The position numbers and the translations under genes were made by a program. The notes under the pieces were generated by a model that was given only the letters and a program-made list of their open reading frames with translations, searched no databases and was not told the origin of the DNA. Positions 3,282-58,357 of a stretch of 64,000 nucleotides of DNA are shown here, in pieces; positions within the stretch are counted from its first letter, which is position 1, and each line of letters starts with the position of its first letter. Origin of the DNA: Gammaproteobacteria bacterium (lineage in GTDB: Bacteria; Pseudomonadota; Gammaproteobacteria; Xanthomonadales; Wenzhouxiangellaceae); contig JAAAPE010000075.1 of assembly GCA_009908385.1 (NCBI GenBank), positions 1 to 64,000 on the forward strand. Reading direction: 5' to 3'.

Positions 3282-3298
3282 CCCGCCAGAATAAAGAA

Positions 3299-3327
3299 AC
3301 GCCCGAAGCGCGGTGCACTTCGGGCGT
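3299..3327 (-). terminator. Rho-independent terminator for the CHAT operon
   Basis: A perfect 10-bp stem (acgcccgaag at 3299-3308 with cttcgggcgt at 3318-3327) encloses a 9-base loop. Read on the minus strand it is followed at once by the T-rich run TTTCTTTATT, so it should stop transcripts coming from the CHAT operon about 270 bases upstream. On the plus strand no T run follows, so the GST gene may use it only weakly. Confidence 0.7.
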
Positions 3328-3594
3328 TGTCGGAGAGCCCTGCACATTGCGACCCGCGTCAGGGAGAGTCTCGCGTTCGCTCTCGCGGGGCCCGGACAGG
3401 GCGTGGCGCCAACGCCAATTGGCTTTCGGGAGCCAGGCCGGTACCGGACTTTCCGACGCCTCGCGTGCGCGCCGTCGCTGCAGGACGGGGTGCGGCTGGC
3501 GGGGTCGGAACGCGTCGGTGCATGGTGGCCGGTACACGGTGGGCTTGACTGGATACTGCCGCGGGGGGCGCCGATCTCTCACCGGCGGCGCGGA
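3328..3594. other. Intergenic stretch without a recognised gene
   Basis: Between the terminator and the CHAT stop codon I see only GC-rich sequence with short imperfect inverted repeats. No start codon with a plausible ribosome site and protein-like reading frame stands out. It would be the 3' untranslated region of the CHAT operon. Confidence 0.5.
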
Positions 3595-6500
3595 TCAGCC
3601 CTGCAGCGAGGTGCCCGACAGGATGAAACCGGCCCAGTAGTAGGGGTGCGCCGTGGCGCGGTGCCGGCGCATGTGGCGCTGCGCCGCGCCCAGCGCACGG
3701 GCCGGCGACTGGCCGTCCACCAGCAGGTGCCGGTAGAAGACCTGCATGAATTCGGCCGTTCGCGCGTCGTCGATCTTCCACAGCGTGCTCAGCACGTCCC
3801 GGGCGCCGGCCACGATGAACGGCCGTGCCAGGCTGAGCGCGCCGCCGCCGGCCGGCACCGGTCCCTTGCCCGTTTCGCAACCGCTCAGGACCACGAGGCG
3901 GGCCTGGAGGGAGAGCTCCGCGATGTCCATCGGGCGCAGCAGCGAGGGGCCGGGACCGTTCTCGTCGGCCAGCAGCAGGGCGGACAGGCCGGGGTACTCG
4001 AGGTCGACGAGTCCATGGGTGGCGATGTGGATCAGCGGGTAGCCGCCCAGTCCGCCCTCCAGCAGGAACTGCCGCGAAGCGGCGCGGCCGGTGCGAACCC
4101 GGACGTCCACGGCGCCGTCGTCCAGCGCAGCTAGGAGCTCCGCCTCGCGCTGCGTGCCCGGCAGGCCGGTCAGCATGCCGCTGCGCATCAGCTGCCCGAC
4201 CAGGCTGCGTTCCGGGAAAGGCGTGGCCGGTGCGTCGTCCGACTGCCAGCCCGGGTTGGCGAGGACGATCATTCTCGCGTCCGCCCCTGGAGGGGACGGT
4301 TCCGTCGCGGGGGCCAGGGCGGCGATGCGGCGCAGCGTGACCCGATCGCCGAGCAGGGTGCCGTCGACGGCGAGCAGGCCGAAGGGCAGGGCCTGCAGGT
4401 TGCCGTGCGGCTCGATCAGGATTTCTTCGACGTTTTCGATCACGCCGGAGGCCGGGCCGGCGAGCAGGTCGCCCAGTTCGCCCGCCAGTCGGCCGATGGC
4501 GCCGACCGCCTGGCGGGGGTGACGCAGTCGCGCCAGGAGACTCGAGACCCCCGCCTCGATCCGTCCGGACCCGGGCAGTTCGAACTGCCGGATACCGTCG
4601 GCCGAAACGGTCCACAGCAGGCTGCCTTCCGGCGTCAGGTAATAGCTCAACAGGGCCCGCTCCGCGCCGAGCTGCGCCTGCACGGCGGCCAGGTCGGGCG
4701 GCGGCGTGGTTCCGGCGGCCTCGTCGAGCCCGCGCAGGCGGGATTCGATCTCGTCGATCTGCAGCAGCAGCCCGCTGGCGGCGCTGTCTGCCGTTCCCGC
4801 GAGACGGATCTCGTGCAGGCGTGTCATGAGTTCGCCGTGGCGATCGAGCAGGTCCTGCCGTGTCGCCCGGGTGCGGCCGCGCCGCTGTGCCAGCCGGAGG
4901 TCGATCGACTCGGCGGCGCGAATGCGCGCGCTCGCCGCCCAGGCCTGTTCGGGCCGGTCGAGCGAGGCGAGCAGCCGGACATGGCGGTCGTCGATGCGGC
5001 CCAGGGTGGCCGACAGGCCCAGCCGGCGGATATCGCCCAGCGACTGCCTTCTCAGGTCCAGCGCGCGTTCGAAGGCTCGGGTGCTGGCGTCGAGCCGGGC
5101 CGTTTCATCGCCGTCGTGAAGCCGGACGAGCGCTTCGAGGACCAGCAGTTCCCGGAAGACGCGCCGCGTTTCCCGGAAGACCTCGAGCGCGTCGTGCAGC
5201 AGCGGCTCGGCTTCGTCGGGCCGTCCGGCCTCGATCAGCGCCAGGGCGAGGCGATAGGCGACGATGGCCGCCTCGCCGGGTTGTTCGTGCCGGGCCATCG
5301 CCCGGTGAATCGACTCCTGGATCCCGACGGCCCGGTCCGACCGGCCGTCGAGCAGCCGGACGTGGGCGCGGCGGCTTTCCAGCATTCGATGCTGGCGCGA
5401 TTCCGGCCGGTCGGCCACCAGCGCCAGCGCGGCGTCGATGGCGGCGACCGCCGCCGGATAGTCGGCCAGGTCCTGCTGCAGGTCGGCCAGGTTGCGCAGG
5501 GCGCGCAGGCGCGCATTGAGATCCTCGGGCTCCAGGTCGACGGCTTCCTGCGCATAGTGCAGGGCGCTCTCGGTGTCGCCGAGGCGGGCGTAAAGCTGGC
5601 TGAGGCGGACGCGGACTTCGCTCATCCAGCGCCTCGCCCCGTCGGCGTCGAATCGCTCCTTGGCCTGCGAGAGCAGCGGCAGGGCTTCGTCGAGTCGCCC
5701 CTGCCGAATCAGCAGGCCGGCCAGGTTGTGCCTCGCCTCGGCACCCGTGCGGGCCCGGGTGACGTGCCCTTCCAGCGCCAGCACGTTGCGCCAGTAGCGT
5801 TCGGCGAGCGCCGAGTCGCCCTGCTGGCCGCGCACGATAGCGAGGTTGTTGAGCGTGTTCAGCGCCCAGGTCAGTTCCGCCGCCGGGTCCGTCGGCGCAG
5901 CGTCGGCTTCCGGATCCGGCGCATTCGAACGCAGGTCGATCGGGCCCTGCAGGATCGTCAGGGCCACCTCGAAATGGACGGCCGCCTCGGCGAGCTGGTC
6001 CAGGCGCATGTGGACCAGGCCGAGATTGTTGTTGGCGCCGGCCACGGCGGTCTGGTCGCCCAGCTCGATGAACAGGGGTTCGGCCATGCGGAAGCGGGTC
6101 GCGGCCTCCTCGAGCTGGCCCTGCCTCAGGTCGACCAGGCCGAGGGAGTTGATCGCGGCGGCGCGGCCGCCGGCATCGTCCAGTGCGTCGAAGATCGTCT
6201 GCGCGGCGAGGTAGTGGTCGCCCGCCTCATCGAGTCGATCGGCGGCGCGCAGGAAGGACGCGAACTCGAAGTGGGCGACCGCGAGCCAGTGGCGGTGGCT
6301 GGTCGACGAAAGCGCTTCGATCGCGTCCCGGTAGGCCTCGCCGGCATCGACGTCATCGGCCCCCGCGCCGAGATAGCGGTCGAGCCGCAGGTCGATGGCG
6401 CGGCTCAGCGAGTCGGCGGCCGTGCCCGGGAAGTCGGGCGGGCAGGGCGCGAGGGTGACTTCGGCGGGCTCGATCGGGAAATCCTCGAGCGACCGGAAGC

Positions 6501-6774
6501 GGATGGCTTCGACCGCTTCCCCGGGCACGGGCAACAGGTAGCGTCCGTCGCGCCCCAGCCAGCTGCCAGCGCGGAAACGAACGTCGCCGTCGGCGTCGAG
6601 GTATTCCGCGATGATGTCGACGCCCCGGTTGCGCGCCTGGGCGCAGGGCGCGACGCTGCCGAAAACGTCGTCAGCGCCGAGCGTGAAGCCGGGCTCCTCG
6701 GCGAGCGCCGCTCCGGGTGATGCCAGCCACCACAGGATGGCCGACAGCGCCCCGAAAGCGGTGCTTCGAGTCAT
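3595..6774 (-). CDS. Exported TPR-CHAT protease-like protein
   Basis: This 1059-residue protein starts with a signal peptide (hydrophobic core, cleavage after ALA near residue 25). A beta-rich N-domain (about 30-130) is followed by a long array of tetratricopeptide repeats (about 140-600) and a linker. The C-terminal CHAT domain, a caspase/separase-like cysteine protease fold, runs from about 750 to 1055. The catalytic pair is visible: His920 in HIATHG and Cys966 in SGCETGKG. CHAT proteins cleave partner proteins; the TPR array is normally the sensing or partner-binding part. It is the last gene of a four-gene minus-strand operon behind an ECF sigma factor, an anti-sigma-like protein and a small secreted protein, with a 5-base gap to the latter. 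Most characterised CHAT proteases are cytoplasmic, so the export signal is notable. The target is unknown. Confidence 0.88.
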   Translation of the reverse strand: MTRSTAFGALSAILWWLASPGAALAEEPGFTLGADDVFGSVAPCAQARNRGVDIIAEYLDADGDVRFRAGSWLGRDGRYLLPVPGEAVEAIRFRSLEDFPIEPAEVTLAPCPPDFPGTAADSLSRAIDLRLDRYLGAGADDVDAGEAYRDAIEALSSTSHRHWLAVAHFEFASFLRAADRLDEAGDHYLAAQTIFDALDDAGGRAAAINSLGLVDLRQGQLEEAATRFRMAEPLFIELGDQTAVAGANNNLGLVHMRLDQLAEAAVHFEVALTILQGPIDLRSNAPDPEADAAPTDPAAELTWALNTLNNLAIVRGQQGDSALAERYWRNVLALEGHVTRARTGAEARHNLAGLLIRQGRLDEALPLLSQAKERFDADGARRWMSEVRVRLSQLYARLGDTESALHYAQEAVDLEPEDLNARLRALRNLADLQQDLADYPAAVAAIDAALALVADRPESRQHRMLESRRAHVRLLDGRSDRAVGIQESIHRAMARHEQPGEAAIVAYRLALALIEAGRPDEAEPLLHDALEVFRETRRVFRELLVLEALVRLHDGDETARLDASTRAFERALDLRRQSLGDIRRLGLSATLGRIDDRHVRLLASLDRPEQAWAASARIRAAESIDLRLAQRRGRTRATRQDLLDRHGELMTRLHEIRLAGTADSAASGLLLQIDEIESRLRGLDEAAGTTPPPDLAAVQAQLGAERALLSYYLTPEGSLLWTVSADGIRQFELPGSGRIEAGVSSLLARLRHPRQAVGAIGRLAGELGDLLAGPASGVIENVEEILIEPHGNLQALPFGLLAVDGTLLGDRVTLRRIAALAPATEPSPPGADARMIVLANPGWQSDDAPATPFPERSLVGQLMRSGMLTGLPGTQREAELLAALDDGAVDVRVRTGRAASRQFLLEGGLGGYPLIHIATHGLVDLEYPGLSALLLADENGPGPSLLRPMDIAELSLQARLVVLSGCETGKGPVPAGGGALSLARPFIVAGARDVLSTLWKIDDARTAEFMQVFYRHLLVDGQSPARALGAAQRHMRRHRATAHPYYWAGFILSGTSLQG

Positions 6775-6779
6775 TCAGG

Positions 6780-7349
6780 TCACTGGCCGCCGTCGCTGCC
6801 GGTGCCGTGGCCGTCGTCGGGTGGGGCAAGCGACCTGAGGGTAGTATCTTCCTGGGTGTCGATGTGCCAGTAAATGACGTCTTGTCTTTTGCATTCGGAG
6901 TCAATTTCGCCGGCGTCGAAATGGTTCTCCGGCGCCTTTTCGTCGATCCAGCGCTCGCAATCGGATATCGTTGTGCTTAGCTCTGAACCTTTCAGAATGG
7001 CCATTGTTAGATCCTTGATTTGGCCATGCTCCTGAAATTCCGCTTCGAGAATCGGGACCTCGCAGCGAATAGTGCAGAGATTCTTGATCTTCAGTGGAAA
7101 TGATCGTCGGCTACCATCGGTGGCCTCCTCAACTATCAGCGCGAGCCGGTCGTTAGCGTCCAGGAAAACACCGAAGAGATCTCGATCCTTGATGTGGCCA
7201 TAATCCGGGCACTTTTGGCCCGTATCGTTCGTCCGGCAAGTCTCAGCGTGCCACTGGAAATTGATCAGGCTGGAATCGGCTTGCGCCATCATCGGCATTA
7301 AGAGCAGCAGCAAGACAATTAACTTCGCCAAATTTCTTGTGTTCATCAT
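6780..7349 (-). CDS. Small secreted protein in the sigma-CHAT operon
   Basis: This 189-residue protein has a strong signal peptide (about 24 residues, Leu-rich core, cleavage after AQA). Its mature region carries six cysteines, likely disulfide-bonded in the periplasm, and the tail is acidic and Gly-rich. I recognise no family. Tandem ATG codons lie at 7349 and 7346. The ribosome site GGGAGGA sits inside the end of the upstream anti-sigma-like gene, which stops one base away, so translation is probably coupled. Its base composition is visibly lower in GC than its neighbours, suggesting faster evolution or later arrival. Its place between the anti-sigma-like protein and an exported CHAT protease makes it a candidate substrate, inhibitor or sensor for that protease. 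That link is inference from position only. Confidence 0.75.
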   Translation of the reverse strand: MMNTRNLAKLIVLLLLLMPMMAQADSSLINFQWHAETCRTNDTGQKCPDYGHIKDRDLFGVFLDANDRLALIVEEATDGSRRSFPLKIKNLCTIRCEVPILEAEFQEHGQIKDLTMAILKGSELSTTISDCERWIDEKAPENHFDAGEIDSECKRQDVIYWHIDTQEDTTLRSLAPPDDGHGTGSDGGQ

Positions 7350-7982
7350 TCAGTCCTCCCTCAATCGATAGGTCTTGAGTACTTCGCCCTCGGGCGAACG
7401 CACCTCGATGCTCTTCAGCGAATTCCCGCCCGGCGCGAGTATCGTGAGATAGCCACGTTCGTCCGGCACCTCTGATTCCCAGATCAGGCTGCCGGCGTCG
7501 CGCACGAGTTCGAGCTGGAACGATTCGTGCTGGTGGGCCGAAACGTCGATTTCCAGGAACACGGGCCCTTCGTGGCCCGACAGGTTCACCGGCGGGTCGG
7601 CGCTCTTTGGCAACAGGCTGCGCTGCTCGAACAGCGTGATCACCGGCACGCCGGTGCTGGGCGACTGCAGGCGCTCGATTCGATCGCCGAGGTGCAGCGA
7701 ATACACGCCGAGCAGCACCGCGGCGGCCCCGAAAGAGGCGGCCAGCGCCCAGGCCAGGTGCGGTAGCGGCGCCGACGACGCGGTGCCGTCCGCCGCCCCG
7801 GACGATGCGGCTCGTTCGTTCTCCTCGAGCCCGCGCCTGAGCAGGTCCTCGGTCTGCACCCGTTCGAACAGGTCGTCGTCTTCGAGCATTTCGAGTTCCA
7901 GCTCACGCGCCTCCTCTTCACTGGCCTGCCCACGCACGTACTCGGAGATGCGCCGATCCAGGTTCTTGGGTCCATCGCTCAT
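7350..7982 (-). CDS. Membrane anti-sigma-factor-like protein
   Basis: A 210-residue protein with an acidic helical N-terminus (about 1-65, with EEEARELELEMLEDDD), one transmembrane segment (about 76-99) and a beta-rich periplasmic domain (about 110-210). This is the layout of a single-span anti-sigma factor. No zinc-binding HxxxCxxC motif is present. It follows the ECF sigma gene after 68 bases and precedes the small secreted protein with no gap. I infer that it holds the sigma factor at the membrane and releases it on a periplasmic signal. The periplasmic region resembles the sugar- or protein-binding outer domains seen in other ECF anti-sigma proteins only in general character. Confidence 0.65.
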   Translation of the reverse strand: MSDGPKNLDRRISEYVRGQASEEEARELELEMLEDDDLFERVQTEDLLRRGLEENERAASSGAADGTASSAPLPHLAWALAASFGAAAVLLGVYSLHLGDRIERLQSPSTGVPVITLFEQRSLLPKSADPPVNLSGHEGPVFLEIDVSAHQHESFQLELVRDAGSLIWESEVPDERGYLTILAPGGNSLKSIEVRSPEGEVLKTYRLRED

Positions 7983-8050
7983 GCGGAATCACCCCGGCGT
8001 GGCATATGAAGTACTGTCGTCATGGCTGCTGATCTCCCATCGCCGCTTGG

Positions 8051-8719
8051 CTAGCGCACGGTCAGGTCGCGGCCGAGCCGGGCTTCCAGGATCTGCCGGA
8101 AGCGCTGGCGGGCCCGGTAGAGGACGCGGTCGAAGTGCTCGGGGCTGAGTTCCAGGGACGCGCAGATGCTTTCCTTGTCTTCTTCGCGCAGGTAGAAACG
8201 CCGCAGGATGTCGCGGTCGCGTTCGACCGTGAGCTCGCCGAGCAGCTCGCGCACCAGTCGCGCGAGCTCGCTGCGCTCGAGGCGGTCGGCCAGCAGCGGC
8301 TCGGCCGTCGCCGCCCGGTCGATCGCGTCGTAGTCGGGGTGGGTGTTGCGGCGGAAATAGGTGCGTGCCTCGCCGCGCGCGAGGTTGACGGCGGTCTGGT
8401 GCAGGAAGGCGGCGAGTTTCTCGGGTTCGTCGAGCCCCGAGTCGCGCAGGCGCTCGATCACGACGATCAGCGCTTCCTGGCGCAGGTCGGCGGCCAGCGC
8501 CGGCTCGCGGACGTGGCGGCGCAGCAGGAACTCGATCCTCGGGCCATAGCGGCGCGCAAGCGCTTCCTCGGCGCTCCGGTCGCCCTGCCGGATTCGGCGG
8601 GCGAGCTCCGCCGCGAGCTGTCCGCGCTGCTGTGCGTCGTTCAACGGCTGTCCCCGATCGTGTTGTGCCGCGGGGTCCCTCAACCCCTGATCCACGGCTG
8701 ACTGGAAAGATCGTATCAC
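8051..8719 (-). CDS. ECF-type RNA polymerase sigma factor
   Basis: The C-terminal 200 or so residues form a sigma-70 family factor. Region 2 (AEEALARRYGPRIEFLLRRHV, then LAADLRQEALIVVIERL) and region 4 (RDILRRFYLREEDKESICASL, then a helix-turn-helix) are both present. The open frame continues far upstream, but that part reads antisense through the divergent TerB-like gene and is not real. No ATG lies at the expected start; GTG at 8719 or GTG at 8695 is most plausible, with a weak ribosome site, so the exact start is uncertain. It heads the operon with the anti-sigma-like protein, the secreted protein and the CHAT protease. By analogy with other ECF operons it probably activates that operon. 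Confidence 0.85.
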   Translation of the reverse strand: MIRSFQSAVDQGLRDPAAQHDRGQPLNDAQQRGQLAAELARRIRQGDRSAEEALARRYGPRIEFLLRRHVREPALAADLRQEALIVVIERLRDSGLDEPEKLAAFLHQTAVNLARGEARTYFRRNTHPDYDAIDRAATAEPLLADRLERSELARLVRELLGELTVERDRDILRRFYLREEDKESICASLELSPEHFDRVLYRARQRFRQILEARLGRDLTVR

Positions 8720-8803
8720 GCCGGTTCGCCGTCCCGCCGGGTACTCTTGAACTTCGATACTGCCGGCCGTACTAATCAATTCGATTGCCAGAGGAGACCA
8801 TCC

Positions 8804-21914: not shown

Positions 21915-24900
21915 ATGCAAGTCTGGAACCTGAGTGGAGGCGAGAGCGAATCACCTGAATGGCGAATTCCGAGTGGTTCGCGCGCGGTGCTGGCCGGTTT
22001 CATGATGCTCGCCTCGGCGGTGTCCGCGCAGTCGCGGGCGGCCGACAACGAGGATCTCGAAACCCGGATCGGGGCCCTGATCGGTACGCACAATTTCGCC
22101 TTGCCGATCTCATTCGTCCCCGATCCCGCCATCGGCATTCCGGCCGGCGCCGTGACCTTCGCCACCAATCTCGCGCTCAAGGACACACGCGCGGTGTTCA
22201 TCACTCCCAACGACTGGGCGGACTGGCCGAACAGTGCCGACTCCTGCTCTTACGATTTCGAGCTTCCCCAATCGCAAGACGAATATTCCAACCTGCTGGG
22301 TTTCGTCGACCTCCAGAGCCTGTCCGGCGACTGGGGTGACCTGGACGACACCGGATCGGTCGAGGTCCACCATGCCAATACCGGGGTCAATGTCTCCGTG
22401 AACAACCCCTATGTGCTGTCCGGGCAGAGCGAAACTCAGACGGTCTCGCTACCCCCCGGGGTCCACCCCTTCGACTGGCGAGCCGATACGCAGATTTCAG
22501 ACGCTTTCGACATCATCATTCCGGCCGCGTTGCTGACCTACAACTCGATCAAGTACGGCGGTTCATTCGCCAACCAGAGCGCGTCCGCCGCGCAGCAGCT
22601 CACCATGAAAAAGGCTGCCGAGGAAACCCTGAAGAACATCGCGCTCACGACGGGACTCGTCGCGGCATCGCAGTTCTTCGACACGCGAACATCGGTCACC
22701 CATACGCGTGACCAGCAGGTCACGATCTACAAGGCACTCGCGCCCGAGATTGCCACAACCCAGTCGAGCGTCGTGATGGAGGCCACGGACTTCGGCGGCG
22801 TTCGCTACGAGCGTGTCGCCGAGACGCTGGCCCAGACGATCGATGCTTCCGACCCTTGCGGCCTGCCGTTCTCACTCGGCAACGACGCGCCCCTGCTTCT
22901 GGGTGTGGGGACGAACGAGATCACCTGGACGGTCTCCGACAACGGGCCGCTGCCGGGCGGTGGTGGTAACAGCAATTCGCTCGTTCAGCAGGTCGTGGTC
23001 GAGGATACACAGGCGCCCATCCTCGTGGCACCGCCCAGCCGCGTGATCGAGGTGCCGGCCACTCATCCGGGACTGGACGCCGACACCATCATGCTCGGCA
23101 CGCCTCGCGTAGTGGACCTGGCCGATCCAGCCCCGTTGATCGAAAACGACGGTCCGGCGTTCTATCCGATCGACTCGCGCTCGCCGATCATCTGGACGGC
23201 CACCGACCAGTCGGATAACGCCAGCCAGGCCGACCAGCTCATCACGATCAAGGCGGCCGGCAGCAACACCGCGCCGATGGTCAACGACGTAACGGCCGAT
23301 ACCTTGACTTCCCAGCCGGTGGATATCGTGCTGACCGGGGAGGACGCGGATTTCCTGGACGGCCGCTTCGACCCGCTGTCGTTCCGGATCAGCCAGCGGC
23401 CGGCCAACGGCGAGTTCGTGGCGCCCCTGTACCCGTTCTTCATCGAAGACTACCGGACGAGCCCGGGTGGACCATACGGTCAGCCGTTCCTCGATGCCAG
23501 CAACCCCAAACAGTGGCTATACCAGAACGTGTGCCAGGTGCTGGGCGGGCCGGATAACGACAAGATTCCACTCGACTGGGTCCACCGCCCGCTGTTCGTC
23601 CATGTCACCGACGGCGGCATCTACGTAATGGTCGACTACTATTTTCGCTGCGGTCCGAGCAGCGTCAGCCAGAACAAGCGACTGTCTTTCTGGGACGCCA
23701 ACGGAGCTTTCATCGACCAGGTCGACTACAGCGGCAGCAACAACACCTTCGTCGTCGACCAGGACAGCTTTCTCTACACGCTCCGGCGAAACGGCGGTGG
23801 GACCAGCACCTCGCTGCTCATCGCCCAGAGCGACGACAGCGTTGATCCGCAAGAGTCGGTGACTGGCGGCGACAGCTGGCGGATCACTGCCTCGTCGGCG
23901 AGCAATCCGGACCTGGGCCTGTCCGATCCGGTCCAGGCGGCGAATCTGTCCTACGGCCGGGTGGACACCCGAGAAGGTCTGCTCTACGTCACCGATCGGC
24001 GTCGCGTTTTCGTATTCGACGTACTCGCGGATCTCAGCGACGGCGTGCCCTACGACAACAACGATATGAACGACCAGTATCGCGGCGCTCTGAACGGCGG
24101 CGATCAGTTCCTGTGCACCAGCGGTAGCTGGGGTAACGACTGGACGGGCTTTGCCATGGATGTCGATCCAGACGGCAATCTCTACATTGCCGACTCCTGC
24201 GCCGACCGCATCCACAAGTTCAGCACCAGTACGCGAAACGATCAGGGCGAGGTGGTTCTGGGCGACTACATCGGCTGGCTGGGCCGTTGCGAGACGAGTA
24301 CGAATAACGCCTGCGACGAGGCGCGTCAGATCAGCAAAGGCTATAGCTGTACTGATGCGACATGCAGTGTTGGCGCTGGCGGCTTCGCCGGTAGCGAAAA
24401 CGGCCAGTTCTCCGAGCTCGAGTTTATCGCCCTGGATCCGAACGGCGTGCTGTATTCCACCGACGAAGGTGACCCGGACACGGGTGGACGCGTCCAGCGC
24501 TTCGGCACCGACGGCAGCTTCGGTGGTGTGGCCCGCTCGACCGGCACCGGTATCAATCAGGGCGACCAGCCCGGCTTCGTGCTGGGCAACCTGGGTACTG
24601 TACGCGCGGTTTCGGTCAACTCCACGCAGTTCTTCGTGGTCGACCAGGAAGAATCCTTCGTGCACGTCTTCGAGACGTCGCCGCTCAAGGACATCACCGA
24701 CGACTCGGTAACCGTGACCTACGTATCCGAGTTCGACTTCCACAGCGATGTCGACAGCTTCGAGTTCATCGCCAGCGACGGTCTGGCCGACAGCAACGTC
24801 GGGACGGCCTTCATCGAGGTCGAGCGCAACTTTCGCGCGCCCGAGGCGAACGACCAGTCTGTCGTCACGACGGAAGATGAATCCATCGATATCACGCTCA

Positions 24901-25934
24901 CCGCAGACGATCTGGACGGGATCGTGGGCTTCGACTTCAACGGACTGGACGTGCTGAGTTACCAGGTTATCGACCTGCCGTCACACGGACAGCTGCTTCC
25001 AATCGACAGCGACAACGCCACGCTGACGTTGCGCTACACGCCGGCCGCGGACTATGTTGGCATCGATACGTTCACATTCGTGGCCAATGACGGCGTGGAT
25101 GATTCGGAGCCGGCTGAAGTGATGATCGAAATGACCTACGTCGACGATCCGCCGCGTGTGACGGATCTGTCCGTTCCCCCGCGAATCGGGCTGGGCTTTC
25201 CCGTTACGATTACCGCCTTGTTCGAGGACGACGGTGCCGTCGACTACACGACCACGCTGCTGGCCGGCGACGGCAGCCCGCCGCAAGACGAAGGGGAGAT
25301 CATCGAAGAGGACGACCAGCCGAGGCTCGACGGCATCGTGCTGGTGGCGCCGCCACTGGGGCGGGGCGAGGGCAGGGCGGTGGCCCAACATGTCTACACC
25401 GGCGCTGGTCCCTGGCAGCTGGAATATTGCCTGGCCGACCAGCTTGCCCGCGAGGACTGCCGGACGATGACCGTCGAGCCTGAGGCACTGGTCAGCCTGG
25501 AGCTCGCCCTGCCCGGCGATCACGGCGAGTTGCCGCCGGCTCCGGTAGACGCCGGGGATACCTTTTCGATCGACGTGGTCGTGGGCAACCTCGAACCCTC
25601 CGGATCGGCGGGGCTCGTGGCCCAGTCGATCGTCATGGAGGGTGCGATCGGCGGCGCCAGCGTGATCTTTGCCGGCGCCTCGGAAGGAGAATGCCAGGTC
25701 AATCCCGACGGCCGGGGCATGACCTGCGATTTCGGAGATTTCGCCGTTGGGGAGGCGCGGACCATCACTCTCCACTTTGAATCCGACGCTTCGATTCTCG
25801 ATCCGGATGTCGTCACGATCGAACTGAGCTTCACCACGGACACGCCGGCGGTCAACGAAATCATGAACGTCAGCGCCGTACGATTCATCGAATCGACCCG
25901 GGCGATCTTCCGCGACAGCTTCGGTTCCGATTAG
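21915..25934 (+). CDS. Giant secreted HYR/propeller/Ig-like protein A
   Basis: The product is about 1339 residues from ATG 21915, chosen because CGGAG lies just upstream; ATG 21834 is an alternative. A signal peptide core (VLAGFMMLASAVSA) is followed by a unique domain and HYR-type modules (ITWTVSDNG, VEDTQAPILVAPP). Next come a six-bladed NHL/SMP-30-like propeller (FAMDVDPDGNLYIADSCADR), cadherin/Ig-like tandem modules with DDLDG and TPAADYVGIDTFTF, and a PKD-like domain. It ends in AIFRDSFGSD, a variant of the [IL]FxDxF ending. It is clearly paralogous to the 30098-35566 protein. Such proteins are extracellular and bind polymers or surfaces. It sits immediately upstream of the hybrid histidine kinase and is a likely target of it. 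Confidence 0.85.
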   Translation: MQVWNLSGGESESPEWRIPSGSRAVLAGFMMLASAVSAQSRAADNEDLETRIGALIGTHNFALPISFVPDPAIGIPAGAVTFATNLALKDTRAVFITPNDWADWPNSADSCSYDFELPQSQDEYSNLLGFVDLQSLSGDWGDLDDTGSVEVHHANTGVNVSVNNPYVLSGQSETQTVSLPPGVHPFDWRADTQISDAFDIIIPAALLTYNSIKYGGSFANQSASAAQQLTMKKAAEETLKNIALTTGLVAASQFFDTRTSVTHTRDQQVTIYKALAPEIATTQSSVVMEATDFGGVRYERVAETLAQTIDASDPCGLPFSLGNDAPLLLGVGTNEITWTVSDNGPLPGGGGNSNSLVQQVVVEDTQAPILVAPPSRVIEVPATHPGLDADTIMLGTPRVVDLADPAPLIENDGPAFYPIDSRSPIIWTATDQSDNASQADQLITIKAAGSNTAPMVNDVTADTLTSQPVDIVLTGEDADFLDGRFDPLSFRISQRPANGEFVAPLYPFFIEDYRTSPGGPYGQPFLDASNPKQWLYQNVCQVLGGPDNDKIPLDWVHRPLFVHVTDGGIYVMVDYYFRCGPSSVSQNKRLSFWDANGAFIDQVDYSGSNNTFVVDQDSFLYTLRRNGGGTSTSLLIAQSDDSVDPQESVTGGDSWRITASSASNPDLGLSDPVQAANLSYGRVDTREGLLYVTDRRRVFVFDVLADLSDGVPYDNNDMNDQYRGALNGGDQFLCTSGSWGNDWTGFAMDVDPDGNLYIADSCADRIHKFSTSTRNDQGEVVLGDYIGWLGRCETSTNNACDEARQISKGYSCTDATCSVGAGGFAGSENGQFSELEFIALDPNGVLYSTDEGDPDTGGRVQRFGTDGSFGGVARSTGTGINQGDQPGFVLGNLGTVRAVSVNSTQFFVVDQEESFVHVFETSPLKDITDDSVTVTYVSEFDFHSDVDSFEFIASDGLADSNVGTAFIEVERNFRAPEANDQSVVTTEDESIDITLTADDLDGIVGFDFNGLDVLSYQVIDLPSHGQLLPIDSDNATLTLRYTPAADYVGIDTFTFVANDGVDDSEPAEVMIEMTYVDDPPRVTDLSVPPRIGLGFPVTITALFEDDGAVDYTTTLLAGDGSPPQDEGEIIEEDDQPRLDGIVLVAPPLGRGEGRAVAQHVYTGAGPWQLEYCLADQLAREDCRTMTVEPEALVSLELALPGDHGELPPAPVDAGDTFSIDVVVGNLEPSGSAGLVAQSIVMEGAIGGASVIFAGASEGECQVNPDGRGMTCDFGDFAVGEARTITLHFESDASILDPDVVTIELSFTTDTPAVNEIMNVSAVRFIESTRAIFRDSFGSD

Positions 25935-26051: not shown

Positions 26052-29000
26052 GTTTGCTTGAGGAGTCGCGATCTGATCGGCGCGTTGCTGCTGCTGACCT
26101 CGGGCTATGCCCTGGCCCTCGAGCCCCCGCCCGGCAAGCCGCCGGTGCGCAATTACACCATGGCCGAGTACGGCGGGCATCTGACCAATTGGGTGATACG
26201 GCAGGGACCAGACCAGCGCATCTATGTCGGCGGCGGGGACGGCCTGGTGATCTTCGACGGTGCCAGCTGGCAATCCATCCGTTCGCGCCACCGCAATCGC
26301 ATCCGCGTCATGGAAATCGACGAGACCGGCCGCATCTGGGTCGGCTCTCCGGACGAGTTCGGCTATTTCGAGGCCGGCGAGGACGGCGGCCCGGTCTATC
26401 ACTCGCTGAGTGACCGCCTGCCCGAGGGTCAGCGCAACTTCGGTTCCGTCCGCGGTCTGCAGTTGATCGGTGACTCGGTCTACTTCCACGCGCTTCGGCA
26501 TCTGTTCCTGTGGCGCGACGGACAACTGTCGGTCGTGCAGGCTACCGACAGCGTGTTTCGGATTGCCCTCCAACACCGGAGCCGTTTCCTGGTCGTCGTG
26601 GGCGATCGGTTCCACGATTACACCGACTTTCCCAGGTCCGGCGAACGACCCGCACCCGAGCCGGGCTGGCGCATGCCCGAGGGTCCGCGCCTGAGCTTTG
26701 TCACCTCCTGGACGGACGGTCGCATCCTGATGGGCAGCGTCGACGACGGCCTGTTCTGGCTTTCCGATGAGGATCCCGAGGCCCTCGAGACCGGGTTCGA
26801 TTTTTCGGGCGCCTGGCCGTATCGGGCCATGCCGGCACCCGACGGCGGCATGCTTGTCGCGAGCCAGCAGGCGGGGCTGTTCCGCATCGGTCAGGATGGC
26901 AAGCTCATCGAGCAGGTGACCCATCGCAACGGGCTGACGGTCAACGGCATCTACGATCTGACTCTCGATCACGAGCAAGGTGTCTGGCTGGCCCAGGGCG
27001 GGGCGATTGCCCGGCTCGACCTCTTCGGTGGGCGGCGTGTCTACGACGCGGATTTCGGCTTGTCGACGACCAACGCGCTGGTGGCTTTCGAGGGCCGATG
27101 GCTTGTGGGCGGCGACGCCGGCCTGAGCGTGCTGCGGGCCGACGGCAGCGATGCGAGTCGGCTAGAGACCATCGATGCGCCCATTCTAGAGGTGTTCCAG
27201 ATCCTCCCCGATGGAGACGGCCTGCTGGTCGCCGGCTCGGAGGGCGTGCATCGCATGGTGCCGGATTTCGAGACGATGAGCCTGAGCGAGCACGACCTTC
27301 TGATTTCCGATACCTACAGTTACGGTCTGGTGCGTTCTCGCCTGCGCGACGCCGTCTACGCCGAGCTGGAGTCCGGGCTCGGTGTATTGCTGAAAACAGA
27401 AGACGGCTGGCGCGCCATCGAACGCGTCGAGGGGGTTGCGCACCGTGCCCATACCGTGGCCGAGGATGTCCGGGGCCGGGTGTGGGTCGGCACGGTGGTG
27501 GGACGCTACTACCGCCTGGCGTGGCAGGGTAATGCGCTGATCCTCGAGGACGTTCTCGACGCCGACGATGGCGTGCCGGAAGGCTACGCCTGGGCGTTCA
27601 ACCTGGGCGAGCGGATGGTGCTCGGGACGAGCGAGGGCGGGTTCCGCCCGGTCGAGCCCGGGGCCGGTCGGATCGAGCCCGAGCCAGACTTCGGCAACGA
27701 CGCGCTCGGCGAGCCGCGCGGGGTGTACCGGATTTTCGGCGCGCCCGATGGCGAGGTCGTGGCCGGCATCGGTCCCGGCGGCGCGCTCTGGCGCGGCCGG
27801 CTGACGGACGACGGCGGCTTTGACTGGTACGGCCGCTGGCTGACGGACCTGGCACCGGCGGTCAACTGGTTCATTGGCGAGCGCGGCGACCATCTCTGGA
27901 TCGGCCGCCATCCGGGTCTGCTGCGGCTGGACTGGCCGCCGACCGCCACCGAAGCCGAACCCAGCCGACTGCAGGTCGTTCGGGCCGGATTCCCCGACAG
28001 TGGGCGTTGGCTGATCGCGGGTCCCGGTTCCGGCGGACTGACCGAGTCGCTGGGGCCGAAGTCGGGTTCGCTTCGCTTTGAATATGCGCTCGGCAGCTAT
28101 CGGGCGCCCGATCTTACCGAGTACCGGGTCCGCCTCGACGGCCTGGAAGACGGCTGGTCGCGCTGGAGCGACGAGACCCGCCGGGACTACACCAACCTGC
28201 CGGGCGGTGATTACGCGTTCCGGGTGCAGGCGCGCAACGCTGCGGGTTCCGTTTCCGAGTCGGAGCCGCTGACCTTCAGCGTGCGCTCGCCCTGGTACCT
28301 GACACCCCTGGCCTGGGCGGGGTACGTCGCGATCGGACTGCTCTTGCTGATGCTGGCTGCACGCTATGGTCAGCGTGCGCGGGAGCGTCGCTTGCTGCTC
28401 CGGCAGAAGGAATTGTCCGAAGAAGTCGCCAGTCGCACCGCCGAGGTGCGCGCCCAGGCCCGCGAAATCCGTCGTGAGAGCGATGCCCGGGCGCGGTTTT
28501 TTGCCAACGTCTCGCACGAGCTGCGCACACCGCTGACGCTGACCCGCGCCCCGCTGCAGGAACTGGCGCAGCACGCCGGCGGGCAGCTGGACGACGCTTC
28601 GAAGCAGTACCTGGATGTCGCCTTGCGCAACAGCGAGGCGATGCAGTCGCTGATCGGGCAGATCCTGGACCTGCAGCGCCTGGAAGCCGGGCGCATGCCG
28701 CTGCGACTGGTCCGGGTCGACCTGGCAGGTATCGTGCGCGGCGTCGTCGATCGATTCGCGCTTCAGGCGAAGCTGCGCGGTGTCGAACTGATCACCGAGG
28801 GTATCGAGCAAGCGCTCGTGATGGCCTGCGACCAGGCGCACGTGGACACCATGCTCGCCAACCTGCTGTCGAACGCGCTGAAATTCACGCCCGACGGCGG
28901 GCAGATCGTGATTCGCCTCGACGCCGGCCCCGATCGGATCGAACTGTCGGTGCGCGATAGCGGTCCCGGTGTGGATCCCCGCGATCGCCAGGCCATCTTC

Positions 29001-29996
29001 GAGCGCTACCGCCAGGGTGAGCTCACCTCCGAGAGCAGCCCCGGCACCGGAATCGGCCTGGCGCTGGTGCGCGAACTGGCCGAGCTGCACGGCGGGTCGG
29101 CCCGCCTGGACGATTCACGCGAACCGGGGGCTTGTTTCGTCCTCGAGATGCCGTCGAACCTCGAGCCCATCACGGCGGCGGTCGAAACTGAACTTGCTGG
29201 CGAGCCCGAGGCGGTGGATGAATCGCCCGCCGATTCGACCCCGCTCGACGCCGAAGACGTCCCCTGCGCACTGCTGGTCGACGATAACGCCGAACTGCGC
29301 GAGTTCCTTCGCCTGCGTCTGGGTCGCAGCTACCGTATTCTCGAGGCAGCCGACGGCGCCCAGGGCCTGGCGGCCGCGCGCGAAGCCTTGCCGGACGTGA
29401 TCATCACCGACGGACTGATGCCGGTGATGGACGGCCTGGCGATGACGCGCGAGATCAAGGCCGACCCCGAACTGGCTTTCGTGCCGGTGCTAATGCTCAC
29501 CTCACGGGCAGCCCCTGAAGACGCCGTGCGCGGACTCGAGGCCGGCGCCGACGACTACCTGGCCAAGCCTTTCGACAGCGCCGAGTTGGCTGCGCGGGTT
29601 GCCGGCCTGATCGCCTCGCGCCGACGCCTGAAGGCGCGTCTCGAAGCGGGCGAGCGGATTCCGGATGAGCGCCCCGAATCCGCCTTCCTGGCGCAGGTCG
29701 ATGCCGTGCTCGATGCCCATCTGGGCGAGCCGGGCTTCTCGATCCGCGACTGGGCGCAGCTGATGCACATGGACCGCACCACGCTCTACCGGCGACTCAA
29801 GAGCGAGACCGAGCAGTCGCCGGAGGACTACCTGCGCGAAAGACGCCTGCAGGCGGCCGAGCGGCTGCTGGCCAGGCGCGCGGGCAACGTCGCCGAAGTG
29901 GCCGACGCGGTCGGTTTTGCCAGCGTCTCGCATTTCTCGCGCCGCTTTCGGGTGCGCTTCGACTGCACGCCGGCCGCCTGGGCGCGGAAAAGCTGA
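26040..29996 (+). CDS. Hybrid two-component system protein (propeller-HK-REC-AraC)
   Basis: This 1318-residue one-polypeptide signalling protein starts with a signal-anchor region. A two-component-regulator propeller follows (about 40-640, repeats such as GRIWVGSPDEFGYF), then a Y_Y_Y-type domain (about 660-760) and one transmembrane helix (about 765-785). HisKA has the phosphorylated His near 826 (NVSHELRTPLTL). HATPase has the N, G1 and G2 boxes, and the receiver domain has the Asp near 1124 (VIITDGLMPVMDG). The AraC helix-turn-helix at the end contains FSIRDWAQLMHM and NVAEVADAVGFASVSHFSRR. The periplasmic propeller senses a ligand and the cytoplasmic AraC domain binds DNA. It lies between two paralogous secreted giants, its likely targets. 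In Bacteroidetes such proteins control polysaccharide utilisation loci, but no such locus is obvious here. Confidence 0.92.
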   Translation: MRSCVCLRSRDLIGALLLLTSGYALALEPPPGKPPVRNYTMAEYGGHLTNWVIRQGPDQRIYVGGGDGLVIFDGASWQSIRSRHRNRIRVMEIDETGRIWVGSPDEFGYFEAGEDGGPVYHSLSDRLPEGQRNFGSVRGLQLIGDSVYFHALRHLFLWRDGQLSVVQATDSVFRIALQHRSRFLVVVGDRFHDYTDFPRSGERPAPEPGWRMPEGPRLSFVTSWTDGRILMGSVDDGLFWLSDEDPEALETGFDFSGAWPYRAMPAPDGGMLVASQQAGLFRIGQDGKLIEQVTHRNGLTVNGIYDLTLDHEQGVWLAQGGAIARLDLFGGRRVYDADFGLSTTNALVAFEGRWLVGGDAGLSVLRADGSDASRLETIDAPILEVFQILPDGDGLLVAGSEGVHRMVPDFETMSLSEHDLLISDTYSYGLVRSRLRDAVYAELESGLGVLLKTEDGWRAIERVEGVAHRAHTVAEDVRGRVWVGTVVGRYYRLAWQGNALILEDVLDADDGVPEGYAWAFNLGERMVLGTSEGGFRPVEPGAGRIEPEPDFGNDALGEPRGVYRIFGAPDGEVVAGIGPGGALWRGRLTDDGGFDWYGRWLTDLAPAVNWFIGERGDHLWIGRHPGLLRLDWPPTATEAEPSRLQVVRAGFPDSGRWLIAGPGSGGLTESLGPKSGSLRFEYALGSYRAPDLTEYRVRLDGLEDGWSRWSDETRRDYTNLPGGDYAFRVQARNAAGSVSESEPLTFSVRSPWYLTPLAWAGYVAIGLLLLMLAARYGQRARERRLLLRQKELSEEVASRTAEVRAQAREIRRESDARARFFANVSHELRTPLTLTRAPLQELAQHAGGQLDDASKQYLDVALRNSEAMQSLIGQILDLQRLEAGRMPLRLVRVDLAGIVRGVVDRFALQAKLRGVELITEGIEQALVMACDQAHVDTMLANLLSNALKFTPDGGQIVIRLDAGPDRIELSVRDSGPGVDPRDRQAIFERYRQGELTSESSPGTGIGLALVRELAELHGGSARLDDSREPGACFVLEMPSNLEPITAAVETELAGEPEAVDESPADSTPLDAEDVPCALLVDDNAELREFLRLRLGRSYRILEAADGAQGLAAAREALPDVIITDGLMPVMDGLAMTREIKADPELAFVPVLMLTSRAAPEDAVRGLEAGADDYLAKPFDSAELAARVAGLIASRRRLKARLEAGERIPDERPESAFLAQVDAVLDAHLGEPGFSIRDWAQLMHMDRTTLYRRLKSETEQSPEDYLRERRLQAAERLLARRAGNVAEVADAVGFASVSHFSRRFRVRFDCTPAAWARKS

Positions 29997-30097: not shown

Positions 30098-33000
30098 ATG
30101 CACAAGCGGATCGAAGGACAGCTGGCCGGCTTGCTGTTGCTGATTGTGGCCGTCGAAGGGATGGCCGAAGTACGGGCCCTGCCGCCGGAGTCGCAATCTT
30201 CGATGAGCGCGGTCAATCTGGCCGAAGCAGCGGCGCGGGGGGCGCAAGACGGTCTGATTTCGACCTTCGATTTGCAGCGACTCGAATTCGACCGCGGACG
30301 GCTCTGGCTGGAGTCGGTCGAGCCGATCGTGCTCCAGCTTCAGCAGCCGAAAAGTCAGGTCGGCCTGCAAGTGGGCGAGTTGCAGGATTCGATCGTGTTG
30401 GTGACGCTTCACCGCGGCGACCACCTTGTGGGGCGCCAGCTTTTCGCCGACCGGGCCGTACCCGGCAGCCGCCTGGCGGTGGTGCGCGACGGCTGGATGG
30501 GCGTCGAGTCCGGCCAGGCCTTCGACCGCGTCGAATTGAGCAGGATCGAAGGCCCCGGGCCGGCGGTCGGAATCGAATCGGTGTCGTTGTCGAACGACGC
30601 TGGCGCGCGTGGCGCCGGCTCGGAGCTGGCTTGCATCCTGCCCCTGGCCGCGGCCTACAACTTCTCGTCGGTCTATACGCTCACACCGGCGCCGGGGGCT
30701 TACGCGGCGGGCTGGGCGGCCTATGCCGCCAATCTCGCGCTGAAGTTCTGCAAGCCGACCCTGATTGCACCGGGCACTGTCGAGCGCGAAGTCCCGCCGG
30801 GCCAGTGCGAAGTCGAGCTCGAGCAGCCGCACATGGCCTTCGTCTACTCCGACGCGCTCGGTATTCCCATCGCCACCCAGAGCGACTGGGGCGAGCTGGG
30901 CACGCCGCAAATGCTCCACCACAACACCGATGTCGACGTGATGCTGCTGGCCGGCAATCCCGGCCCGCCGACGGCGAAGTCCACCGAACTGGATTTCCTG
31001 CTGACCAGCGCCTCGTTCGATGCCAGCGACAAGATCTGGGAAAGCTGCCGCGAAGACGGCAGCGTGCGCTACAGCCAGCTCGATGGCGCCGGCCCGGAGT
31101 ACGAATGTCCCTACGTCGAGGATCGGATGCTGTCGTTTCCGGTCGGCCACAACACGGTGGTGTGGCGGGCCAATCCGCGCCTGAGCCCGGTCGATCTGGT
31201 CATCCCGATTCCAGGGCTCCCGTCCGGTGCGAAGTTTCAACCCTATTCAGGCCTCCTTTTCGAGATCTGGTTGGAGACCTGGTTCACCGTGCTGGATACC
31301 CAGATCAACGGCTGGCGGCTGCCGAACGCGCAGTTCGATTTTCAGAGCGTGACCGTGTTCGACGAAATCCCGCCGACGATCACCCCTTCGCCCGGCAGCG
31401 AGGGCAACGCCAGCGCCACGCTGGTGGGTGGCGTGCTGCACGTGACCATCGAAGCCGACGAAGTTGGCGGCGTGTCGCGCCGCCGCTACGAGGACACGCT
31501 GCGCTCGTTCCTGCAGGTGAGCGATGCCTGCGACCGTGACACCACTTTGAGTCTGGCGTTTCCAAACGAAGCCCTGCGCAGCTTCTGGCCGGTCAGTACC
31601 GATACGCAGGACAACAGTTTCGAAGTGGCCTGGACGGCCCGGGACCCGGGTCCAAACATGGCCGGGTTGCCGAACGAGACGGCGACGACGATGCACATCG
31701 AAGTGCTCGACCGCCAGCCGCCATCGCTGGTGCCGCCGCCGGACATCGTCGAGATCGATACGCAGCAGGTCAGCGACCTGGGCCAGGCGGCCGTATTCGA
31801 CCTGGTCGATTTGAGTCCGCAGGTCAGCAACGATGCCGCGCTTCCACTGGGCCTGGGCCTGCACGAGATCACCTGGACGGCCGTGGACGACGCCGGCAAC
31901 AGCGCTCAGGCGGTCCAGATCGTCAACGTCAAGGCCTCCAATATCCCGCCGGTGGCGTTGGCCCAGACCGGCCCCGGCCGGCCCGATGCGGTTTCGTTCG
32001 AGCCGACGCCGATCCGGCTGCAGGGCAATGATCCCGACGGCGACCCGCTGCGCTTCAAGATCGAGGACGTTCCCGAAAACGGCTTTTTCGTCGCGCCGCT
32101 TTATCCGTACTTCATCGAGGACTTCCGGATCGAGCAGTCGATCAGTGACGCCCAACTCGACGACCTGTGTACCAACGGCCCCGAGGCACCCAACGGCGCC
32201 TTTGAACTCGAGTTTCCCTCCGAGCCCATCTACATCACGGTCACCGACCAGGGCGAAACCTTTGTCGTGGACAAAGGCTCCATCAACTGCAGCGGTGGTG
32301 ACTCCGAGCGCTTCCAGCGTCTCGCAAGATTCAGTCCGGACGGCAGCCTGCATTCCACCGAGCGAGTGAGTGGTTTCGACTTTCGCGACGTGGTTTTCGA
32401 TGTCGACAACGGCTGGATCGTGGCCACCTCGGTCAATGGAACGGGCGAGGGCTTCATCCGGGTGTACGACACCGACTTGAACGACATTCAGGACTATGGG
32501 CTGACAGATGTGCGCAACACGGATGGCGATTGCGTTCCTTTCGCGACGGGTGGTTGCGACATTGAGAACGCGAGAAGTGCGGTCCTCGACGATATCGGCC
32601 TGCTATACCTGATGGACTTTACCGGCCGGATCTTTGCTCTGGATGACGAGCGGGCGCCTTCCGATCCAACCGTTTTCATCGACTATCTCAGTGACGATGT
32701 CGAGAACACCCAACCCACCTGGGTCGATGCCGGATCGCTGGCCATTGATTCGGAAGGATTCGTCTACGCCTCACGCAACGACCGCATCTACAAGTACGAG
32801 CCGGCCTGGGTGAACAGCGAAGGACAGGTCGTTCCCGGTGATCCCGTCGGCTGGCTGGGTCGCTGCGATATCGACCTGGCCCCGGGCGACCAGGCGGTGT
32901 GCGATGTGGCCAACCATCGCTCCCTGGGATTTTCCTGCACCGACGATATCTGCGGCGTCGACGACGCCTTCAACGCAGGCGAAGAAGCCCTGTGCGACGG

Positions 33001-57766: not shown

Positions 57767-58357
57767 ATGAACGAAGCTGTAATCGATTCTACAACCCGAC
57801 TGATTCGCGAGGCGCAGTCCGGTGACGGAACTGCGCGTGATCGCCTGTTTGCGCGTTGCCGGCCGCTGCTCAGGCGCTGGGCGCGAGGTCGATTGCCGCA
57901 TTTTGCCCGTGATCTGGCCGATACCGAAGACCTTGTTCAGACGGCCCTGACTCGGGCTTTCACCAATTTGGACCGCTTTGAGGCACGGGGTACGGGCTCG
58001 TTTCTTGCCTACCTGCGAACCATCACGCTCAACGCGGTCAAGGAAGAGCTGCGGCGCAGCGGCCGCCGGCCGGAGGACACGGAGCGGTTCGAGGCGGCGG
58101 ACGATTCGACTAATCCCGTTCTGGAGGACGCGATCTCAGCCGATACGCTGGCTGACTACGAGTCCGGTCTGGATCGGCTCGACGAACCGCGTCGGGAGGC
58201 TGTCGTTCTGAGACTGGAGTTTGGGCTGAGCTATTCGGAAATCGCCGAAGAGCTGGGATTGGCATCAGCCGACGCGGCTCGCATGAAAGTCTCCCGCGCC
58301 TTGGTTCGCCTCGCCGAGGTTATGCGACCGCCTGACGATTCAGCTGGCGCTCACTGA
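57767..58357 (+). CDS. ECF-type sigma factor
   Basis: The 196-residue protein starts at ATG 57767 behind AGGGGTGAGG. Sigma region 2 ([20 protein letters not shown] and [20 protein letters not shown]) and region 4 ([20 protein letters not shown] with the following helix) are clear. It is more like the group of ECF factors linked to Ser/Thr kinases and secreted proteins than to stress-type ECFs, but that is judged by eye. No anti-sigma gene is next to it. Its 3' end overlaps the convergent pyrC gene by 18 bases. A weak resemblance to the boundary element (AATG at 57700, CCAAACGC at 57722) precedes it. Confidence 0.88.

Follow-up and report, generated by a model that had tools for sequence, protein, structure and literature searches.

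In the DdvS-DdvA system of Myxococcus xanthus (8rot, 8rw5; PMC4374960), an extracytoplasmic function (ECF) sigma factor is placed under a membrane anti-sigma coupled to tetratricopeptide repeats (TPRs) and a CHAT domain, and the ddvS promoter depends on DdvS; the signal for DdvA was given as unknown (PMC4374960). The best studied mechanistic parallel is Craspase of type III-E CRISPR, in which the TPR-CHAT protease Csx29 cleaves Csx30, the inhibitor of CASP-sigma, near its C-terminus (PMC10028731); the target is recognised by docking, with no conserved site (PMC11106740). CHAT-domain proteins are also found in the genetic context of ECF54 sigma factors, for which proteolytic control was proposed (PMC8999054). 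Here, a four-gene cassette encoding an ECF sigma factor, a putative membrane anti-sigma, a small secreted cysteine-rich protein (the partner) and an exported TPR-CHAT protease was analysed in a 64,000-nucleotide stretch of a gammaproteobacterial genome (Wenzhouxiangellaceae; GenBank assembly GCA_009908385.1, contig JAAAPE010000075.1, positions 1 to 64,000), called the window below; this genome comprises 2.94 Mb in 155 contigs and is an estimated 85% complete.

The cassette was interpreted as an accessory, self-amplifying envelope-sensing switch, an interpretation in which our confidence is about even. We infer that the membrane anti-sigma (7350-7982) would bind the ECF sigma factor (8051-8644) and keep it inactive, and that the TPR-CHAT protein (3595-6774), exported to the periplasm, would form the sensing and protease arm. 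The partner (6780-7349), secreted alongside it, would belong to this arm and present its flexible C-terminal tail to the TPR-CHAT protein. Upon an envelope signal, the CHAT cysteine protease may process the tailed partner, the extracytoplasmic part of the anti-sigma, or both; the sigma factor would then be freed and would raise expression of its own unit and of partner and CHAT. Sigma binding, proteolysis, substrate, signal and physiological outcome are all proposed steps of this kind. The features on which the interpretation was built are these:

3282-8803, no strand assigned: approximate span of the insert, from syntenic flanks in G016 and G039, where the site is empty
3298-3328, minus strand: intrinsic terminator with a 14-bp stem and a T-rich tail
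3595-6774, minus strand: exported TPR-CHAT caspase-like protease (P0004), 1059 amino acids, by PF12770 and TPR families
3613-4491, minus strand: CHAT protease domain with His920 and Cys966, by PF12770 and the invariant dyad
6700-6774, minus strand: predicted signal peptide of the TPR-CHAT protein, residues 1-25, by inspection; low pLDDT in the model
6780-7349, minus strand: secreted cysteine-rich partner protein (P0003), 189 amino acids, GC 0.535; signal peptide by inspection
6783-6824, minus strand: C-terminal tail of the partner, PPDDGHGTGSDGGQ, recurring on unrelated CHAT-neighbour proteins and predicted to be disordered
7350-7982, minus strand: single-pass membrane protein, putative anti-sigma, 210 amino acids, by position, topology and co-conservation
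8051-8644, minus strand: ECF-type sigma factor (P0001), 197 amino acids, TTG start, by TIGR02937 and PF04542
8710-8718, minus strand: extended -10 element of promoter-like form, TGATACGAT, preceding the sigma gene, read from the sequence

The genes for sigma, anti-sigma, partner and TPR-CHAT protein follow one another in this order in one minus-strand operon (3595-8644) with operon-like intergenic gaps of 68, 0 and 5 nt; GC content was 0.535 in the partner gene versus 0.66-0.72 in the remaining operon genes. The partner has a signal peptide and six cysteines. A preliminary description of this DNA had proposed such a four-gene operon, with a low-GC secreted cysteine-rich protein directly before the CHAT gene, and was borne out in order and gene content; the terminator that it had placed at 3299-3327 was seen as a hairpin at 3298-3328. 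No Rfam element was found in the operon region.

The TPR-CHAT protein was matched by PF12770 with 180 bits (cut-off 24) over residues 762-1054 and by several TPR families, and its AF2 model (pLDDT 81) consists of a beta domain (29-110), a TPR superhelix (117 to about 700) and the CHAT domain (706-1059), so that profiles, alignment and model agree on a TPR array followed by a CHAT domain with a His/Cys dyad. The dyad, noticed early on as present, is intact, both residues being invariant in 13 of 13 aligned CHAT sequences (27-54% identity to P0004). By inspection, the N-terminus (MTRSTAFGALSAILWWLASPGAALA, followed by EE) is a Sec signal peptide, as had been proposed; among 55 full-length CHAT relatives sampled from the order and class, 38 have a strong N-terminal hydrophobic segment, compared with 111 among the 303 other proteins exceeding 300 amino acids, and several of the remaining relatives have mis-called starts. 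Some carry a lipobox instead (e.g. L088, L098, L104). Export, at first thought peculiar to this CHAT gene, is thus the usual state in its subfamily. Cys44 and Cys111 of the N-terminal domain come as a pair: 5 sequences of the alignment of 13 have both (one of them displaced by a gap in the alignment) and the others have neither, a joint pattern that fits a disulfide outside the cytoplasm. When GTDB contigs were searched with a peptide pattern for P0004, the only matches were two distant ones in Bacteroidota.

When the P0004 model was compared with the PDB by Foldseek, DdvA ranked first (8rot, E 4e-15), followed by Csx29 and separase. Better support comes from a CHAT-only profile, in which DdvA was again first (8rot_B, E 1.2e-8) with the His and Cys motifs aligned and retained, because the Foldseek TM-scores for DdvA were low over the whole chain (0.27-0.31), as expected for flexible superhelices. 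DdvA is a transmembrane anti-sigma that itself contains TPR and CHAT, and the cassette therefore looks like a split-gene form of it, judged by predicted structure and profiles: TPR and CHAT fold are shared, whereas the putative anti-sigma and the TPR-CHAT protein are encoded by separate adjacent genes, the latter with a signal peptide of its own. That one known protein fuses both parts argues that they act together. Like Craspase, the cassette would tie a TPR-CHAT protease to an ECF sigma via a sigma inhibitor; unlike it, the CHAT protein is exported rather than cytoplasmic and RNA-activated by Cas7-11, and the cassette contains no Csx30 relative. Membership in type III-E CRISPR was rejected (20.7 bits with the Csx29 model against a cut-off of 300; no Csx30 match), and neither Cas7-11 nor a CRISPR array was found among the four cassette genes, the rest of the genome not having been searched for Cas7-11. 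ECF54 differs in having been described without an anti-sigma and with carboxypeptidase and subtilase genes (PMC8999054). With RseA/DegS-type regulated proteolysis, as summarised in PMC10028731, the cassette would share a membrane anti-sigma with a periplasmic part, and site-1 cleavage could fall to a periplasmic protease; the serine protease DegS would have as its counterpart a cysteine protease of caspase fold that carries TPRs and is secreted along with a partner. CRISPR-linked enzymes of the cytoplasm are the best-known TPR-CHAT proteases, and the present family would put such proteases outside the cytoplasm and under an ECF sigma; the split form would allow protease, anti-sigma and partner to be expressed and tested separately.

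The product of 8051-8644 is an ECF sigma factor by TIGR02937 (52.7 bits over residues 50-210, cut-off 42.9) and PF04542 (27.5 bits, cut-off 24); sigma region 4 of Pfam gave no match in it. Its start, formerly set at GTG 8719, was moved to TTG 8644, because the product then has the length of the G036 orthologue (197 amino acids from the TTG, 76% identity) and GTG 8719 lies at the -10-like element. This element (TGATACGAT) is suggestive, since an automatic promoter scan of the region reported no sigma-70 site; other -10-like elements, picked out by eye, precede the sigma genes of relatives. The second gene was found after the sigma gene in every complete relative, and its product has, by inspection, one hydrophobic segment, an acidic N-terminal part and a conserved extracytoplasmic C-terminal part with an RGYLT motif; on position, topology and co-conservation it is a putative anti-sigma.

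Sigma control of the protease is supported by three relatives from another family (G119, G105, G178), in which sigma and anti-sigma form one unit and partner and CHAT another, the two being convergently oriented. GAGAG[AG]-N16-CACT[TA] was present in 6 of 6 upstream regions of these units (letter shuffles reached at most 3 of 6); an inverted-repeat form, CTCTCACTT-N(9-38)-TGAGAG, occurred genome-wide only at these units (two sites each in G119 and G105, one in G178), and a reversed-pattern control gave zero sites in the three genomes. The simpler GAGAGR-N16-CACTW motif had one or two additional sites per genome. Two blocks at a fixed spacing of 16 nt resemble an ECF promoter, so that in these three relatives the sigma factor probably drives both its own unit and partner plus CHAT, likely as an autoregulated unit like that of ddvS. 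The envelope-facing sigma circuit of the preliminary description is supported, and the shared element makes the sigma regulon directly testable. An extra ECF-type element was seen at the same place in G119 (L138:1501-1527) and G105 (L136:1501-1527), between clpB and an LpxL-like acyltransferase gene; there is no obvious gene directly downstream, and it could not be tied to a gene.

The succession of sigma, anti-sigma, small secreted protein and TPR-CHAT genes is found again across the family (G036, G032, G009, G010, G008 and twice in G007), and in G011 the small protein follows the CHAT gene. An A4-type sigma gene was located within four genes of CHAT in 32 of the 55 full-length relatives, and sigma plus anti-sigma in 30, both counts being estimates because relatives were sampled by their similarity in CHAT and a simple script called the genes. 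Frequent occurrence of CHAT without the sigma factor had been named as a finding that would speak against the circuit. The outcome was mixed: the sigma gene is close by in the 32 loci and elsewhere in the genome in others, and partner plus CHAT pairs lacking it in cis also exist; G111 and G194 have partner and CHAT without sigma in cis and each has one such sigma/anti-sigma pair elsewhere in the genome. Over 33 loci, sigma and CHAT identities were correlated (Mantel r 0.66, 0 of 2000 permutations), partly owing to shared ancestry of the host genomes; for CHAT and anti-sigma, r was 0.77.

In the congeners G016 and G039, the flanking order kinase-like/ORF1805/GST-like/TerB/LuxR is kept at 60-87% protein identity without the operon; the GST-like and TerB/DUF533 genes, between which the insertion lies, are separated by 5.5 kb in the window versus about 53 bp in G016. 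The operon of G036 is placed elsewhere, beside a Sua5-like gene whose surroundings have counterparts, assigned by eye, at 43.1-45.3 kb of the window, without an operon. A strong match of this CHAT type was obtained in 4 of 30 members of the genus (G000, G036, G032, G034). The cassette behaves as a mobile or repeatedly lost accessory element. Direct repeats of 10 bp near both insert ends were judged to be chance. In G034, whose locus is a close relative of that in G032, an in-frame sigma::CHAT fusion of 591 amino acids was found (L043:1490-3265), most of the operon between sigma and CHAT having been lost by natural deletion or assembly error.

Orthologues of the partner occupy the same operon position in G036, G032 and G007, and no relatives were found in Pfam, NCBIfam, PHROG or PDB, nor a copy in a plasmid search; the P0003 structure model (pLDDT 55) was too poor for a fold search. 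By sequence, CHAT-adjacent partners divide into about nine groups without evident mutual similarity (one pair of groups was formally tested). In that pair, no homology between P0003-type and 'CNFW' partners of the same family could be demonstrated (E values of 0.09 or worse with hmmsearch, a probability of 2.5% with hhalign), and the two have only position, signal peptide, cysteines and tail in common. Many partners end in a tail rich in Gly, Ser, Thr, Asp and Asn (PPDDGHGTGSDGGQ in the window; TKPDDGSGTGGN, DPDDGSWTGDTP and QGDGTGTGGNGDIGK in others), and in the window's partner this tail has pLDDT 29-45. Such a tail was counted in 24 of 51 same-strand small CHAT neighbours versus 8 of 279 other small proteins of the same loci (Fisher p 6e-16, a value that is too small because related sequences were counted singly and the criterion was fixed after examples had been seen); some of the eight tailed 'controls' belong to CHAT modules themselves (L082, L096). 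The recurrence of the tail across partner groups stands, and the tail is a concrete candidate recognition signal. A DNA-pattern search for it in six genomes gave counts at chance level. In a second variant, the tailed protein is replaced by a haem-peroxidase gene (PF03098) and a small protein with a Trp-rich C-terminal motif. CHAT modules with an animal-type haem peroxidase, a Trp-rich-ended small protein and the same sigma/anti-sigma pair were noted in L071, L078, L080, L081 and L085, the peroxidase being assigned by PF03098 in L081 and L085 and by motif only in L071 and L078. The lone partner plus CHAT units of L045, L048 and L049, which come from different genomes, have in common a conserved leader (CTTGCGCGTC...) just upstream of the partner gene. 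Tentatively, and with somewhat less than even confidence, the CHAT systems described here are taken as a widespread class, not described before, of extracytoplasmic CHAT protease systems under sigma control with interchangeable unrelated small partners, sometimes accompanied by the peroxidase gene, that would be recognised via the common Gly/Ser/Thr/Asp-rich tail.

Several results weigh against the envelope-sensing switch. The product of 7350-7982 matched no Pfam or NCBIfam model, including those of anti-sigma families, above cut-off. G007 (two), G008, G009 and G010 contain partner plus CHAT pairs that lack a sigma gene in cis, and a search of G159 (a bin 89% complete) found neither a sigma nor an anti-sigma of this type. 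Within the window's own family, no promoter element common to the sigma units and the lone partner plus CHAT units was found (results equal to shuffles). Outside that family, CHAT carries a signal peptide but the tailed partners do not, so that the two would miss each other in the periplasm unless the partner were exported in some other way. Tailed partners of this kind were recorded in L056, L057, L059, L061, L062 and L075, most of the adjoining CHAT genes encoding a signal peptide.

The lone pairs would also suit an arrangement in which the sigma pair merely induces and the TPR-CHAT protein with its tailed partner is a conflict, defence or regulated-death effector, the protease activating the partner near the tail. 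The patchy distribution, with insertion at different places, points the same way, as does the partner, which is the fastest-diverging gene (32% identity between G000 and G036, versus 76% for sigma and 55% for CHAT) and is replaced by unrelated proteins in other loci. Yet no toxin-like, pore-forming or phage-related domain was found in the partners scanned, and the PADLOC protein set gave only weak TPR/CHAT and BovA cross-matches to the cassette, with no known anti-phage system matched. The earlier suggestion of a defence or regulated-lysis circuit was not supported, and no toxin, pore-former or murein-hydrolase is encoded among the cassette genes; an effector of this kind, for which the only positive evidence is patchy distribution and fast partner evolution, is regarded as unlikely.

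The exported TPR-CHAT protein could instead act without proteolysis, as a sensor binding both a ligand and the anti-sigma, with an ancestral, dispensable dyad; a binding role is compatible with DdvA, which holds CHAT inside the anti-sigma itself, but is at odds with a His and a Cys that are invariant in the 13 sequences at 27-54% identity to P0004, and is regarded as quite improbable. GPI transamidase and PorU are caspase-fold enzymes that process C-terminal signals, and a corresponding sorting or maturation protease, which would recognise the predicted disordered tail that the partners share in place of a common body and trim or anchor them at the cell surface, is the least probable of the alternatives, given that no scissile motif is strictly invariant among the tails, whose sequences vary, and that the CHAT domain is structurally nearer DdvA, Csx29 and separase.

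Elsewhere in the window, the genes of two giant Ig/cadherin-like proteins (21915-25934 and 30098-35566) flank that of a large hybrid two-component protein (26058-29996; Y_Y_Y, HisKA, HATPase, receiver and AraC HTH). Ser/Thr kinase genes at 46220-48766 and 50466-52973, of which one has TPRs, are located near beta-helix-type secreted proteins, and an additional ECF sigma gene was recorded at 57893-58357.

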